A DNA stretch of 64,000 nt from Opitutia bacterium Tous-C8FEB (GCA_002304435.1 NEUZ01000002.1:1-64000); one strand, 5' to 3'. Shown: positions 52,494-60,296, numbered from the stretch's first letter. The notes: generated from the letters alone by a model not told the origin. Numbers and translations are program-made.

Positions 52494-54092
52494 TTGGCCC
52501 CACCCCCGATGCGCGCGCTCCTCCGCTGGTTCCCGCTCTGGTTAGCGCTTCTCGCCCCTGCCTTGGCCGGAAGCCCGTCACCGAAGGTGCTCCACGTCGG
52601 CGTGGGCGTGGACCCGCAGGACCTCGACCCGCAGATCATCACGGGAATCCCCGAGGCCCGCATTCTCCGCGCCCTGTGCGAGGGCCTCGTCATCATCGGC
52701 CCCGACGGGAACCTCGCGCCCGGCGTAGCCCAGTCCTGGGAAACTTCGGCCGACGGCCTGCAACTAACTTTCCGCCTCCGCCCGGAGGCCCGCTGGTCCG
52801 ACGGCCAGCCACTCACCGCCCGGGATTTTGTCGCCTCCTACCAACGGATCCTGACCGCGGGGCTGGGCGCCCGGAACGCGGAGCGCCTCTATCCGGTCGT
52901 CGGAGCCGAGGACTACCACCGGGGACGGTTAACGGACTTTAGCCGCACGGGCTTCGCCGCCCCGGAAGCCCATCTCCTACGCCTCACCCTGCGCCAACCC
53001 GCCACCTTTCTCCTGCAGTTGCTCACAATGCCCGAATGGCTGCCGGTGCCGCTGCACGTCATCAACCGGGTCGGCCGGCCGGACCAGCCGGGTAACCGCT
53101 GGACGCGCGCGGAACACTTCGTGGGCAATGGCGCCTTCACCCTCCGCGCCTGGCGCCCGGGCCAGCCCCTCATCGTGGCCCGCTCCCCAACCTACTGGGG
53201 CCGCGCGACGGTCCGACTCGACGAAATTCACTTTCATCCGATCGAGGACGCGGGCGTCGAGGAACGCTTGTTCCGCCAAGGCAGACTCCACCTGACGCAA
53301 ACCGTCCCCGCGGCGAAAATCGCCCCTTACCGACGGGAGCAGCCCGACAGCCTGCGCATCGATCCGTTCGGAGGTTTGTACTATTACGTGTTCAACACCC
53401 GCCGTCCGCCGTTCGACGACTCCCGGGTGCGGCGCGCGCTGGCCCTCGCACTCGATCGCGAGGCACTCACCCGCTACGTCAGCCAAGGTGGCGAGGAACC
53501 CGCCTACAGCGCGGTGCGGCCCGGCCTGGCCGGCTACCCCGGCGCCCCCACCTTCCGCGCCGATCCGGCGGAGGCCAGACGTTTGCTCGCTGCGGCCGGC
53601 TTTCCCGGTGGACGCGGCTTCCCGCGGATGGAGCTACTGTACAACACCGCGGAGCAACACCGGGCCTTGGCGGAGGCGGTGCAGCAGCGCTGGCGCCGCG
53701 AGCTGGGCATCGAGGTCACGTTGCTGAATCAGGAATGGACGGTCTACCTGGACACGATCAACCGCTCCCACGCCTTCCAGTTGGCCCGGGGCGGCTGGGT
53801 CACGGCCGAACCTCACATCCATCTGGAACGCTGGCAGACCGGCCACGCCACGAATCAGGCGGGCTGGAGCCACGCAGGCTATGATCGCCTGCTGGCCGCG
53901 GCCCTCGCGGCGCCGACCACCGCGGAACGTTATACCCGCTACCGCGAAATGGAGACGATCTTGGCTGAGGAAATGCCGTTCATCCCGGTCTACTTCCACA
54001 CCTTGCCGCGGCTCGTCAGTCCCAAGGTCCTCGGCTACCGTACCACCCTCGAGGACGCCTTCCCCTGGGCCGCCGTCGATCTGCGGCCCTGA
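52494..54092 (+). CDS. Peptide ABC transporter substrate-binding protein (OppA-like, SBP family 5)
   Basis: [82 protein letters not shown]; start may be 52509. Confidence 0.93.
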
Positions 54093-54122: not shown

Positions 54123-55286
54123 TCAAAGCCCGAGGATCGCCCGCAAGACTGCGGCCAACATATCGATCGGACTCCCGGAGGACGGCTGGCTCGGCTGACC
54201 GGGCTGGCCCGGTTGGCCCGGTTGCCCCGGCTGGCCCGGCTGGCCACCCTGACTGGAACTGGAGGCAGACGAACTCGACTGGCTGGCCGAGCTAGGGCTG
54301 CCCGGCTGGCCCGGACGCCCCGGCTGACCCGATGGCGGCCGTCCTGATTGGCCCGGTTGCCCTGGCTGCTCCAAGCCCGCCAGCGCCGCCGGCGTGCCCA
54401 AATCCCGGCCCTGCCCCTCCTGCCCGCCGCGGTTGGGCGTGCCCTGCTGGTCCGCGCCACTCGCGGAACCGGCGGGCCGTCCACTGCCCGAATTCCCATC
54501 CGGACCATCGTCCCGGCCATAAGGGTACTTGTCCTGGGCGTTGGGGATCCCATCTCCGTCGATGTCTGCATCTTGGGCGTTGGGTATGCCGTCCCCGTCC
54601 ATATCGCCGTCGGCCGCGTTCGCGGCGCCGTCTCCATCCAAATCACCGCCCGGACCGTCGCGGCCATTACCCGCTCCGCCAGGCCCGGAAGGATCGGGAT
54701 TGGTCCCATAACGGTACTCGTCTTGGACATCCGACACCCCGTCCCCGTCACTGTCCTCGTCCCGATCGTTCGGGATGCCGTCGCCGTCCATATCGGGATC
54801 CTCCCGATTGGGAATGCCGTCCCCATCCAGATCACCGTCGGGACCGCTGCGGCCATCCGCGGAGATTCGGGCAAGCGCCCCCGTTCCCCGGTCGCCTCCC
54901 GGCCCGTCCCCTGCTCGCCCGAACACCCCGGAGAAGGTGAAGCGCACGTGGTCGACCTGACTGGAGCCAAGCGAGGAGCGGTTTTTGATCGCGGCGTCGC
55001 GAACCGCCTCCAGCTCACGGCGGCGCCGCAGGGCCTCCTCCGCGTCCGCGAGCGGGCCAAACAAGCAGGTCAGGTTCTCGTGCCGGTAACGGACGTACCA
55101 ACCCTCGTCGCTCGGACCAAGGCCGGTGATATTGATGCCGCCGTGGCGCTGGCGGAATTCATCCGCGGGCAAATTCCAGAGGTCCTCGATGGCGGAGACC
55201 GGGTAGATCAGCGTCGTCGCCCGCCCGGCGCCAGGAAGCACGGCGAAGGCCAGCAAACCGAGCAGGAAGCGTAAGGAGGGCATCAC
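54123..55286 (-). CDS. Secreted protein with TSP3-like calcium-binding repeats and collagen-like Gly-X-Y tail
   Basis: Signal peptide; six DxDGDG-type repeats; GQPGQPGQPGQPGQPGQP tail; C-terminal IDMLAAVLRAILGL. Confidence 0.85.
   Translation of the reverse strand: MMPSLRFLLGLLAFAVLPGAGRATTLIYPVSAIEDLWNLPADEFRQRHGGINITGLGPSDEGWYVRYRHENLTCLFGPLADAEEALRRRRELEAVRDAAIKNRSSLGSSQVDHVRFTFSGVFGRAGDGPGGDRGTGALARISADGRSGPDGDLDGDGIPNREDPDMDGDGIPNDRDEDSDGDGVSDVQDEYRYGTNPDPSGPGGAGNGRDGPGGDLDGDGAANAADGDMDGDGIPNAQDADIDGDGIPNAQDKYPYGRDDGPDGNSGSGRPAGSASGADQQGTPNRGGQEGQGRDLGTPAALAGLEQPGQPGQSGRPPSGQPGRPGQPGSPSSASQSSSSASSSSQGGQPGQPGQPGQPGQPGQPSQPSSGSPIDMLAAVLRAILGL
54184..54246 (-). repeat. Collagen-like (Gly-Gln-Pro)n coding repeat
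   Basis: Near-tandem 9-nt units gg(c/t)tggccc; translates to (GQP)6 plus SQP on the minus strand. Confidence 0.85.
54520..54845 (-). repeat. TSP3-like DxDGDG repeat-coding region
   Basis: DLDGDGIPNREDPDMDGDGIPNDRDEDSDGDGVSD...DLDGDGAANAADGDMDGDGIPNAQDADIDGDGIPNAQDKYPYG. Confidence 0.88.
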
Positions 55287-55293
55287 TGGAAGG

Positions 55294-55986
55294 TCACAGC
55301 CCTGAGGGGATGACCCGGCCCTTCTCCGTGCGATTAGGGCCGCCCTTATTCACCGGACCCTTGCCGCCCGTGCCGGTACCCTTCTCGTAATCCTGCGTGT
55401 TGACGTTCGCGACCTGCTGGGCGCCAACGACGGCGGGGCTGCGCGGCTGCTGGGGAATGCGCATCGCCTGATCTCCAATGGCCATCGCAGTGGGTCGGGA
55501 GGGCCCCTTGCCGTCCGGGGCCGGCGCGGCGGCTTCGCCCTTCAGCTCCGCGACTTGGATGCCATGTGCTTGCTCACTGGAGCCGGCCGCGGGGACTTCG
55601 GCCTCCTTGCCGCCCCCGCCTCCTGCCTTGGTCGGATCCGGCCGTCCCGAACCGCCGGGCTTACCCGGGAGCCCAGCGGTGCCCTGATCCGCGGCCTGAC
55701 CTCCGGCTTGGTCCGGCGGGACCGCCGCGCCGCCGACTTTGTCCGCCTTGGCCTGTTCGTCTCCGGGCAATTCAAAGTCCCCGATCATTCCGATCGCGGA
55801 ACGCTTCTCTGGCGCGTGGGCCGAACCATCGAGGAGGGCGGGATCGGGCAGGACTGCCCGGCTCCCGGAAGTCGACCGCACCGGCCCCGGGCGGGCGCCT
55901 CCCGCAGACTCGGCCGCCGACAAAGGGGCCCAACCGGCACCCCAAAGGCCAATCCCACAGCACAGCAGAGAGCGGGCGAAACTCAT
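55294..55986 (-). CDS. Secreted Gly/Pro-rich low-complexity protein, function unknown
   Basis: Signal peptide MSFARSLLCCGIGLWGAGWAPLSAAES; ATGA overlap with 55983-57689 gene; C-terminal Gly/Lys/Asn-rich tail. Confidence 0.7.
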   Translation of the reverse strand: MSFARSLLCCGIGLWGAGWAPLSAAESAGGARPGPVRSTSGSRAVLPDPALLDGSAHAPEKRSAIGMIGDFELPGDEQAKADKVGGAAVPPDQAGGQAADQGTAGLPGKPGGSGRPDPTKAGGGGGKEAEVPAAGSSEQAHGIQVAELKGEAAAPAPDGKGPSRPTAMAIGDQAMRIPQQPRSPAVVGAQQVANVNTQDYEKGTGTGGKGPVNKGGPNRTEKGRVIPSGL

Positions 55987-57689
55987 TTCTGATCAGAAGG
56001 AACGTTGCAGATGACGGTCACCAGCGGCGGCGGCGTGCCCGCCCTCACTTGGAGGAGCAGATTGATGTCGCGGTACCCTTTTCGGCGGCCGATCACCTCG
56101 TAGTCCCCGGGCAGGATCCGCATCACCTCGGAGTCAAACTTCTGGGGCGCCTTGAAATTGGTGATCTGAACCCACGTGCTGCCATCAGATTTGAAGGTCA
56201 CCTCTACCGGCTTGTTCTGCTCCATTAGCTGCGCATGGAGCTGCTGCACTCGGTCGCTGTTTACGAGATAGGAAGGCTTTACGGCCATCGCCTCGTTGAA
56301 TCGACGAATGGCGCCCTGAAAATCCGACCGGTTGGCCAACTGCTCGGCGGCCTCGATGTACTTCTGGTACTGCAGCAGCGCACGGATGACCGTACCGACC
56401 CGCGTGTAGCCCTCCTTCGCCTCCGCGTGGTCCGCGTCCAGCTTCAGCGTCTCGCTGTAAGCCTCGCGGGCCTCCGACCACTGGTACGCCTTCTCATAAT
56501 CGAACGCCTTCGCAAGGGCCTTCTGCACGGCCTCCTGGTGCGCGTTGGCGCGGGCCGTCTTCAACTGCGCCTGCACCTCGGTATTCTGAGGGGTTACCTT
56601 AAGGGCGTTCTGCAACTCCGCGATCGCCCGGTTCCAGTCGCGGGCTTGGATTGCCTCGTCCGCAGCGGCCTTGGCGGAAGCGAACCGGGTCTCCTTCTCC
56701 AAGCGAGCCGACCGCGACTGTCCCTCCTGCGCCGCCGCCGAGAACCCATCGAGCGCGAAGGCCTGCTTGTAGGCCTCGGCCGCTTCCTTGAACTGCTTCT
56801 GTAGCTCCAGCTTGGCCCCCTGCTGGAGCAGCGCGTGCACGCGATCGCTCGTCTCTGCCCGCTTCAGGCCCTGTAAGGCCGCTTCCAATCCCGGAGACTT
56901 TGCGAGGGCCTGCTCGAACGCTTGGCGGGCCGCAGCCTTCTCGCCCGCCGCGAGGGCACGCTGCCCATCGAACATCCGGGCTTTGACGAAAGCGGTCAGG
57001 GCTTCCTCGGCGCGCTTAAGCTGCGCAAAGCCCGCGTCGAATTGCTTCTTCGCCCCCGCAAAATTTCCGTCGGCTAGGAGTTTGCTGCCCGCGCCGGCCG
57101 CTTCGAAGGCCGCCTCTAGGGCGCCCGGCGCAAGGCTGCGCGCCAGTTCCAATTCCTTAATGCGCAGAAGAATCGAATCGTACCCCTGGCGGGCCTCCCC
57201 CTTGGCCTTCACGTTGCGGGTAAAGGATTCGATCTCGGGGTTCAGCGCCTCGAACACGGCAAACGCGCGCCCAAAGTCCCGGCTCCGCAGCAGCGTCTCC
57301 CCCTGCGTGAACAGGCGCTCCATCGTGATCAACTGCTCGAGCTGCGAGGGATGGTCGGCCGGCACCCGCCGGAGTTCCTTCAGCGCTTTGGATACCAGCT
57401 CGAACGCCTGCTCCGCCTTGGCCTGACTGATAAAGGCGGAACTGGCCTCAGCGATGGACGGGGAACCGACTGCCGCGACGGGCGCCGGGGCGAAGACCTC
57501 CGGCCCCAAAAACAGCTTAAGCCCGCGGATGACCAGCCCCGCCGCCAACAGCAGCGCGAACGCGCCGCCCAAGGTCCACGCGATCACGCGCGGCCAAGCC
57601 GGGCCCCGCCGGGCCTGTTCCTTGCCCGCTTCCGGGTTCCAGTGGATGATGCGGCGCCGCTTCGGACCGCCGGGAGATTCCTCGGCCAT
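55983..57689 (-). CDS. TPR-repeat membrane protein with C-terminal PEGA-like domain
   Basis: Start at 57689 (MAEESPGGPKRRRIIHW...), one N-terminal TM helix, repeated helices (AYKQAFALDGFSAAAQEGQSR, AYSETLKLDADHAEAKEGYTR), C-terminal VEVTFKSDGSTWVQITNFKAPQKFDSEVMRILPGDYEVIGRRKGYRDI. Confidence 0.8.
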   Translation of the reverse strand: MAEESPGGPKRRRIIHWNPEAGKEQARRGPAWPRVIAWTLGGAFALLLAAGLVIRGLKLFLGPEVFAPAPVAAVGSPSIAEASSAFISQAKAEQAFELVSKALKELRRVPADHPSQLEQLITMERLFTQGETLLRSRDFGRAFAVFEALNPEIESFTRNVKAKGEARQGYDSILLRIKELELARSLAPGALEAAFEAAGAGSKLLADGNFAGAKKQFDAGFAQLKRAEEALTAFVKARMFDGQRALAAGEKAAARQAFEQALAKSPGLEAALQGLKRAETSDRVHALLQQGAKLELQKQFKEAAEAYKQAFALDGFSAAAQEGQSRSARLEKETRFASAKAAADEAIQARDWNRAIAELQNALKVTPQNTEVQAQLKTARANAHQEAVQKALAKAFDYEKAYQWSEAREAYSETLKLDADHAEAKEGYTRVGTVIRALLQYQKYIEAAEQLANRSDFQGAIRRFNEAMAVKPSYLVNSDRVQQLHAQLMEQNKPVEVTFKSDGSTWVQITNFKAPQKFDSEVMRILPGDYEVIGRRKGYRDINLLLQVRAGTPPPLVTVICNVPSDQK

Positions 57690-57878: not shown

Positions 57879-58691
57879 ATGAACACCCGGCTCGCCCTCG
57901 CCCTGCTTGCCCCCGTCCTCCTCCTCGCCGGTTGCTACGAGGTGCCCGTGACCGGCCGGCGCGCGATGAACCTGGTCGACGACAAAGAGGTCACCAAAAT
58001 GAGCGTGGGCATGTTCGAGGACCTGAAGAAGCGCTACCGCCCTTCCCGCAACCAGGCGCACCAAGCGCAGCTCCAACGCGTGGGCTCCCGGCTGGCGAAG
58101 GTAGTCTTCTGGGATATGCCCGACGCCGACTGGGAATTCGTCGTTTTTGATAATCCGCAGATCAACGCCTTCGCGATGGCGGGCGGTAAGGTAGGCGTGT
58201 TCACCGGGATCTTCCGCATTGCGAAGACCGATGACCAGCTGGCCGCGGTGCTCGCCCACGAGATCGCCCACGTCACGGCCAAGCACGTCCACGAGAAGCT
58301 TTCCCGCGAACTGGCGGTCTCCACCGTGGGGACAGTGGGGGTGATCGGGGGCCTCGCCGGCGGCGCCTCCGGTCTGGCGGTCGACGCGCTCGCCCAAGTC
58401 TACGGCCTCACGACCGGCATCGGGGGCTTCGCCTTCGACCGGGAAAAGGAACGTGAGGCGGACTACGTCGGCCTGATGTATATGGCCCGCGCCGGCTACG
58501 ACCCGCAAGCGGCAGTACAGGTGATGGAGGCACTCGAGGCCGAGACCGGCAAGGACCCGATGCCCCCCGCGCTCCTTTCGACCCATCCGTCCCACCCCGA
58601 GCGGATCCTCAAGCTGATGGACGCGATGCCCAAGGCCCTCGAAGAACGCTCCCGGAGTGGCCAGCTGGCCAATCCGATCATCGTCCGCTGA
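57879..58691 (+). CDS. M48 family metalloprotease lipoprotein
   Basis: Lipobox LLLAGC; VLAHEIAHVTAKHVHEKLSRE (HExxH); FDREKEREADYVGLMYMARAGYDPQAAVQVMEAL. Confidence 0.94.
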   Translation: MNTRLALALLAPVLLLAGCYEVPVTGRRAMNLVDDKEVTKMSVGMFEDLKKRYRPSRNQAHQAQLQRVGSRLAKVVFWDMPDADWEFVVFDNPQINAFAMAGGKVGVFTGIFRIAKTDDQLAAVLAHEIAHVTAKHVHEKLSRELAVSTVGTVGVIGGLAGGASGLAVDALAQVYGLTTGIGGFAFDREKEREADYVGLMYMARAGYDPQAAVQVMEALEAETGKDPMPPALLSTHPSHPERILKLMDAMPKALEERSRSGQLANPIIVR

Positions 58692-58733: not shown

Positions 58734-60296
58734 CTACTGGCCCTGCTTCTTCTTGCCGCCCTTGTTCGGCCCGCCGCCCGAACGGCCCAGCCATTCCGGC
58801 GGGATCTGGGCCGGGACCTTCAGTTCCGTGCGCAACTGTGCCAACTGGCCCTCCAGTTGCTTCCGCGCCGCCGCGTAGGCCGGGTCCGCTAGGACGTTGC
58901 GCAGTTCCCGTGGATCCTTCTCGATGTCGTAAAGCTCCCAATAGTCGTCCGCGGTCCCAAAGAAGTGCACGAGCTTGTAGCGGTCGGTGACGACCCCGTA
59001 GTGCGGCCGCACCCGATGCGGGGCCGGCCATTCGAAATACTGGTAATAGAACGCCGTGCGCCAGTCCGCGGGTCGATTCCCCGCTAGGATCGGCCGCAGG
59101 CTCCGGCCCTGCATCTCCGCCGGCGCCGGCAAGCCGGCCGCATCCAAGAAGGTCTGCGCGAAGTCCAGGGTCGAGACCAAGTCCTTGCTCACCCCACCCG
59201 GACGGCTCACCCCGGGCCAGCGCACCAGCAGTGGCGTGCGCAGCGACTCCTCAAAGATCCAGCGTTTGTCGAACCAACCGTGCTCGCCGAGGAAGAACCC
59301 TTGGTCGCTCGAGTAGACCACAATCGTATTCTCGGCTAGGCCCTCCTTTTCCAGATAATCGAGCAACCGTCCGACGCTCTCATCCACCGCGCGCACCGTC
59401 CCGGTATAGTCGTGCATATAGCGCTGGTAGCGCCAGCGGACCAGATCCTTGCCCTGCAGGTTGGCGGCCCGGAAGCGAGCATTGCGGGGCTCGTAATAGG
59501 CATCCCAGACCTTCCGCTGCTCGGGCGTCATATTCGGCGGCGGATCAAGCTTGGCGTCCCGTTCGGTGAAGGTCTTCTCCAAAGACATATCCTGGTCCCG
59601 CACGGCGATGCCGCGATTGGCATAATCGTCGAAGAGCGTGTCCGGCTCGGGGTAGACGCGATCCCCATCGGCGCCCAGATGCCGCAGGGCGGGGGCCCAC
59701 TCCCGGTGGGGGGCCTTGTGCTGGGACATCAGCAGGAACGGCCGGCTCTTGTCCCGCTGGCGCAGCCAGTCCAGGGAGAGGTCCGTGATGATGTCCGTGG
59801 TGTAGCCTTCCATCTTCACCTGCTCGCCCATCCGGATCATCGGTGGGTTATAGTAGAGGCCCTGCCCCGGGAGGATGTGCCAGAAATCGAACCCCGTGGG
59901 ATCAGACACGAGGTGCCACTTGCCGATCACCGCGGTCTGGTAGCCCGCTTGGCGCAGGATCTTCGGGAAGGTCACCTGTGAGCCATCGAACCGGGAGTTC
60001 GAGTTGTTCACGAACCCGTTCAGGTGGTTGTACTTTCCCGTAAGCACCACGGCGCGCGACGGGCCGCAGATCGAGTTCGGGACGAGGGCGCGGTCGAAAC
60101 GCATCCCGGACTTGGCCAGCCGGTCAAGGTGCGGGGTCTCGAGGAGGCGCCGCCCCTCGCCATAGGCGCTGATGGCCTGGTAGGCGTGGTCGTCGGAGAA
60201 GATGAACACGATGTTCGGCGCGCGCGGGGCGGCGGCCGAGGCGGCCGTGGCGGCCGCAAGAGCGAGGGTCAGGAGACCGAGGGGGGAACGGGGCAT
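58734..60296 (-). CDS. Type I (Cys) sulfatase
   Basis: NIVFIFSDDHAYQAISAYGEGRRLLETPHLDRLAKSGMRFDRALVPNSICGPSRAVVLTGKY; CxPxR formylglycine motif. Confidence 0.95.
   Translation of the reverse strand: MPRSPLGLLTLALAAATAASAAAPRAPNIVFIFSDDHAYQAISAYGEGRRLLETPHLDRLAKSGMRFDRALVPNSICGPSRAVVLTGKYNHLNGFVNNSNSRFDGSQVTFPKILRQAGYQTAVIGKWHLVSDPTGFDFWHILPGQGLYYNPPMIRMGEQVKMEGYTTDIITDLSLDWLRQRDKSRPFLLMSQHKAPHREWAPALRHLGADGDRVYPEPDTLFDDYANRGIAVRDQDMSLEKTFTERDAKLDPPPNMTPEQRKVWDAYYEPRNARFRAANLQGKDLVRWRYQRYMHDYTGTVRAVDESVGRLLDYLEKEGLAENTIVVYSSDQGFFLGEHGWFDKRWIFEESLRTPLLVRWPGVSRPGGVSKDLVSTLDFAQTFLDAAGLPAPAEMQGRSLRPILAGNRPADWRTAFYYQYFEWPAPHRVRPHYGVVTDRYKLVHFFGTADDYWELYDIEKDPRELRNVLADPAYAAARKQLEGQLAQLRTELKVPAQIPPEWLGRSGGGPNKGGKKKQGQ

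Follow-up and report, generated by a model that had tools for sequence, protein, structure and literature searches.

Three adjacent minus-strand genes at 57689-54123 of a 64,000-nucleotide stretch from Opitutia bacterium Tous-C8FEB (GCA_002304435.1, NEUZ01000002.1:1-64000; the whole stretch is referred to as the window) probably encode the periplasmic or envelope module of an ion-driven trans-envelope machine with a TolQ/ExbB-vWA motor. The motor itself has already been predicted; what we propose here as new is the trio as its partner module. Gene 1 (55983-57689, 568 residues) encodes a putative inner-membrane TPR scaffold, gene 2 (55294-55986, 230 residues) a putative exported disordered linker, and gene 3 (54123-55283, 386 residues, ATG at 55283 with an in-frame GTG at 55286 as an alternative start) a putative exported leash protein. 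All three open reading frames (ORFs) are present where the initial annotation had placed them, with genes 1 and 2 overlapping by ATGA as described and a gap of 7-10 bp between genes 2 and 3. Orthologues of gene 1 occur in 25 of the 26 other genomes of the genus (61-98% identity) and in seven further genera; gene 3 is distributed in almost the same way and adjoins it in nearly all orthologue-bearing genomes of the genus; because both are kept across the genus, the trio does not consist of chance ORFs. The annotation had made its grouping depend on joint conservation in relatives, and the trio is indeed kept as a unit over several families of the order, which agrees with its picture of a single scaffold anchored in the membrane and a pair of exported proteins.

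The association between the trio and the motor is established by comparative genomics in two samples, one of 57 relatives (31 genera) and one of 390 Verrucomicrobiota genomes. Among the 57 relatives, gene 1 was found in 33 and the second vWA protein of the motor (vWA2) in 32, the sole mismatch being the window's own metagenome-assembled genome (MAG). The one member of the genus that lacks gene 1 (G022, 100% complete) also lacks vWA2. Across the phylum sample, vWA2 occurred in 22 genomes, every one of which also carried gene 1, and only three further genomes had gene 1 without vWA2, i.e., the window's MAG (G000), G159 and G350. The contig of G350 breaks off shortly after a TolQ/ExbB-like gene, at the point where one would look for the vWA genes. 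G159, a genome of 1.7 Mb, has a gene 1 interrupted by a stop codon, a gene 3 and no vWA2 match (L228, G159:C6, 5294-8198), as one would expect if the system had decayed once the motor was lost. The N-terminal domain of gene 3 was detected in 20 of the 22 motor genomes as well as in G000 and G159, and in 0 of 368 others (unfiltered search, E 0.001). With each genus in the sample of relatives counted once (31 genera), the association between gene 1 and vWA2 had a Fisher P of 1.3e-7, a value that does not fully model phylogeny. Within genera g1 and g35 presence differs from genome to genome, and the parts do so in concert. In many genomes they lie on different contigs or far apart and still co-occur; the association is therefore not due to synteny alone. 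A search of plasmid records returned no match to vWA2.

Several points weigh against assigning the trio to this motor. The search for vWA2 found no motor gene in the window's own genome. Because TPRs match generically, gene 1 was counted only when a match reached its C-terminal domain, and the remaining 20 profile matches in the phylum sample are TPR-only. The Fisher test over all 390 genomes (P = 5e-33) ignores phylogeny. Gene 3 was not detected in the motor genomes G176 and G345, and gene 2 cannot be searched for independently. The structural models are also of limited help: that of gene 1 (predicted local distance difference test, pLDDT, 70) is confident in the helical repeats only, with a low-confidence C-terminal domain, and that of gene 3 (pLDDT 38) is useless for a fold search. 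Finally, in the distant families f41 and f46 gene 1 is accompanied by a different accessory set.

The motor's absence from G000 is most likely the result of an assembly or binning gap in a MAG that is 70% complete. In G009, a close relative, the motor lies in a block of prfC, secG, motor and plsX (gene names read from the sequences), and this block has no high-identity counterpart in G000. The plsX profile had no match in G000 and matched in 8 of 14 control genomes. We favor incompleteness because plsX, the motor's neighbor in G009, is missing from G000 too. As the operon is absent from this incomplete MAG, the co-inherited TolQ/ExbB and vWA motor was invisible to the initial annotation.

In relatives, the motor operon lies convergent to the trio and encodes a MotA/TolQ/ExbB-family channel, an FHA-domain protein and two vWA proteins (vWA1 and vWA2). 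The channel protein matches PF01618 (2.3e-17), is present in loci with a complete operon and carries GF[ILV]GT in 33 of 33 sequences. Both vWA proteins, which are paired in most loci, begin with N-terminal helices of type FSLSFLDCICCGFGAVILLFV, and the Asp of this transpore helix, which corresponds to the proton site of TolR/ExbD/MotB, is found in all 73 of them. The metal-site motif DxSGSM is kept in 37/37 vWA2 proteins and the first Asp of the site in just 7/36 vWA1 proteins (e.g., L074:5583-6644), which suggests unequal roles within the pair. No separate tolR/exbD gene was found within the ExbB-FHA-vWA1-vWA2 operon. Divergently from the motor are encoded a glycine-zipper lipoprotein and a DUF4136-like lipoprotein, the latter below the Pfam cut-off. 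In eleven loci the trio and the motor adjoin convergently, and six of these also contain the lipoprotein pair and the M48 gene described below. An Hsp70/actin-like label given by eye to the FHA protein was dropped, as the HscA match was very weak (0.041) and no useful PDB match was obtained. In G033, a second, divergent motor copy (ExbB, vWA1, vWA2) has its own TPR gene nearby (L131, G033:C300, 2079-14036), the main copy being in L073; a cell may house such paralogous machines side by side.

Gene 1 appears to be built for a position in the inner membrane. Its basic, cytoplasmic N-terminus holds a motif conserved among orthologues (KRRxIHWNP; KRRRIIHWNP in the window) and is followed by a predicted transmembrane helix in a hydrophobic stretch (residues 33-61, 57507-57593). 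The TPR-like helices noted previously, like the N-terminal helix, were borne out, with TPR_2 and TPR_14 both above the Pfam cut-off and structural matches of the model to the TPR proteins P58(IPK) and OGT, at low template-modelling scores. The C-terminal beta domain (residues 494-568, 55986-56210) holds 7 of the 17 invariant residues and tracks the motor across the phylum. It had been called PEGA-like, of which a faint resemblance stands: the second half resembles PEGA domains (LPxGxYxVxxxxxGY) and the first half differs from them. Membership in PEGA was rejected, since PF08308 was absent both from the Pfam matches of gene 1 at E 1 and from the 25 commonest families of 18 orthologues, and since hhalign against bona fide PEGA domains gave a probability of 24%. 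G043 and members of families f41 and f46 do encode true PEGA-SUMF1 proteins next to gene 1.

Genes 2 and 3 both read as having signal peptides and are of biased composition, as had been noted from the sequence. Pattern searches recovered gene 2 in 25 of 30 loci and showed its conservation to be confined to two ends, PDPxx[FL][DE] N-terminally (PDPALLDGS at 55822-55848) and [IVMLF][PS]xx[LIF] at the extreme C-terminus (GRVIPSGL at 55297-55320). The linker between them consists of 71-91% Gly, Ser, Pro, Gln, Asn, Ala, Glu, Asp, Lys and Thr. In gene 3, a conserved N-domain of ~100 residues (residues 24-120, 54924-55214) has G, Y, H, L and FGP as invariant positions and the conserved pattern YxHxxLxxxFGP, and most loci retain a C-terminal amphipathic helix (residues 372-385, ending LRAILGL, 54129-54170). 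Composition of the intervening linker is nearly free; TSP3 and collagen-like sequence fills it in the genus, and elsewhere it is Gln-, Ser- or Glu-rich or almost lacking. The N-domain gave no Pfam match in any of 16 orthologues and no PDB match (best E 0.97, unrelated). By eye the N-domain looked SPOR-like, a tentative reading that neither Pfam nor PDB bore out; a search of the window's own genome found no SPOR protein for comparison.

The distant families place the parts of the trio in perspective. The alternative accessory set of f41 and f46 comprises an exported protein with a conserved C-terminal helix, a lipoprotein of ~400 residues and a PEGA-SUMF1 (FGE-like) protein. In G176 this set runs straight into the motor genes, and G043 carries both sets. 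Because distant families use the other set, gene 1 is the universal partner of the motor, and genes 2 and 3 are the version of the window's order, with gene 3 also occurring in f41. There, the gene 3 homologue ends in a full transmembrane segment in place of the amphipathic helix, which fits a membrane-anchor role for the C-terminal helix. The f41 homologues (L247-L251) adjoin conserved coiled-coil proteins of ~300 residues and an uncharacterized protein of ~250 residues, and lie far from gene 1 and the motor. The exported protein of the alternative set ends in EDIVARQLREAAEKETDPxLxxKLWxEYxAY (loci L223:2750-13986, L224, L225-L227, L207 and L075).

From these features we infer contacts and force transmission that could make the parts one working machine. 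Proton flow through the channel would turn or flex the vWA pair. Gene 1 would be anchored next to the motor in the inner membrane, holding a TPR scaffold in the periplasm, and gene 2 would act as a flexible tether, with each conserved end binding one of two partners. Gene 3 could provide a small domain in the periplasm, carried on a long and flexible leash that its C-terminal helix fixes to a membrane. Jointly, the trio would pass the work of the motor to the outer membrane or the cell wall. Judging by domain type, and as guesses, the FHA protein might provide phosphorylation-dependent control and the motor-side lipoproteins might be the outer-membrane ends.

As to what such a machine might do, gliding or the handling of surface polymers, in the manner of Myxococcus Agl-Glt, is our best guess at function by analogy. 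It would be a functional specialization of the proposed envelope machine, not its opposite, and draws on the same layout as Agl-Glt (PMC3169522) and on the suggestion of gliding for vWA transducers in the discussion of these motors by the authors of PMC12204202. The likeness to Glt proteins is nevertheless one of layout, and the profile evidence amounts to just a weak TraC match (0.0035 against a cut-off of 500 bits), so that as a specific assignment we regard it as rather unlikely. Another candidate role is to replace Tol-Pal, or back it up, when the outer membrane constricts. The motor superfamily and the envelope-spanning layout are the same, and the lipoproteins next to the motor, of glycine-zipper and DUF4136-like type, would suit it. 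However, all 30 genomes examined contain TolB-like propellers, whether or not they carry the motor, making simple replacement unlikely; the distribution is also patchy and the system dispensable, and we consider this role unlikely overall.

The initial annotation had suggested a cell-surface or matrix assembly, with the neighboring M48 protease as a possible processing partner. On this reading gene 1 would serve as an export scaffold, and genes 2 and 3 would be surface proteins rich in repeats. The signal peptides, and the TSP3 repeats and collagen-like composition of gene 3, speak for it. The TSP3 repeats are genuine (PF02412, 28.0 bits, cut-off 25), with the Asp-rich stretch (54489-54851) forming a lineage-specific part of the variable linker. 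TSP_3 matched in 10 of 16 gene 3 orthologues and in none from other families. The repeats do not define the family, and in relatives the gene 3 domain sits on other linkers; we therefore rejected the classification of gene 3 as a TSP3/collagen surface protein and regard this composition as a lineage-specific filling of the leash. The parts of genes 2 and 3 that are conserved are instead small domains and end motifs, and co-inheritance with an inner-membrane proton motor would not be expected of a surface assembly.

The M48 metallopeptidase lipoprotein (57879-58691, plus strand, divergent to gene 1) was likewise correctly identified, as it matches PF01435 (1.7e-40) and contains HExxH in the form HEIAH. 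Each of the 22 loci in Opitutaceae that carry the main orthologue has it beside gene 1, which counts in favor of the surface-assembly reading; outside the family, however, it is not a neighbor of gene 1, and paralogues of ~40% identity occur elsewhere in the genomes of motor-less relatives. With linkage limited to one family and paralogues in motor-less genomes, we rejected M48 as a system-wide component and keep it as a divergent neighbor. Taken together, the observation of the trio is confirmed and its initial interpretation is partly supported, namely as a conserved unit of scaffold and exported partners; the surface or matrix assembly itself is improbable.

A Zorya-type anti-phage defense system is very improbable: the patchy distribution would be compatible with it and ZorA profiles give a weak match to the channel across the MotA/ExbB core common to both (5.5e-05, 20 bits), but PADLOC returned no ZorB or other convincing defense-protein match among the trio and motor proteins, no nuclease or helicase effector was noticed in the loci read, and we rejected membership in Zorya accordingly.

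The remaining neighbors in the window are ordinary by profile. They include an OppA-like family 5 solute-binding protein (52494-54092, plus strand) convergent to gene 3, a sulfatase with an SGSH-type C-terminal domain (58734-60296, minus strand) that adjoins the M48 gene, and a xylose-isomerase-like barrel protein.

Only a small number of motors harness the proton gradient of the inner membrane for work at other places in the envelope, and they are important (Tol-Pal, Ton, flagella and gliding). The partner set proposed here, co-inherited with its motor and marked by conserved docking motifs and a near-perfect marker domain, makes function, contacts and cargo testable in cultured Verrucomicrobiota. 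The case of gene 3 also illustrates that conspicuous low-complexity repeats can steer attention away from a protein's conserved, informative parts.

Among described systems, the motor linked to the trio fits, by description, the second vWA family of PMC12204202 ('Origin and Evolution of Bacterial Periplasmic Force Transducers'), in which a vWA-headed motor class termed TPH-vWA/TolQ was predicted in 2025. That paper's section on this family describes no TPR scaffold, exported linker, leash protein, FHA gene, lipoproteins or M48, and the TPR gene that appears in the paper belongs to the other, SHLS-type vWA family. In Myxococcus, Agl-Glt is a TolQR-type motor driven by the proton-motive force and co-inherited with an envelope complex that includes FHA-domain and exported proteins (PMC3169522). 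The likeness, compared by layout only, lies in the combination of a TolQR-type motor with TPR, FHA-domain and exported partners, and the difference in the vWA heads on the transpore subunits and in the other partners found here. With Tol-Pal and Ton, the motor of the relatives shares a PF01618 channel and a TolR/ExbD-like proton-site helix; it differs in its vWA heads and in the extra scaffold and tethers, and Pfam recognized no TolA/TonB transducer in the scanned proteins. We tentatively suggest, as a possibility we hold at somewhat less than even, that the trio and motor, found in several Verrucomicrobiota families, form a class of their own among proton-driven envelope machines. In it a vWA heterodimer would be the moving head, and its work would be passed on by a TPR scaffold with two largely disordered tethers, gene 2 bearing docking motifs at both ends and gene 3 being a membrane-anchored leash with a small domain, a layout unlike that of TolA/TonB.

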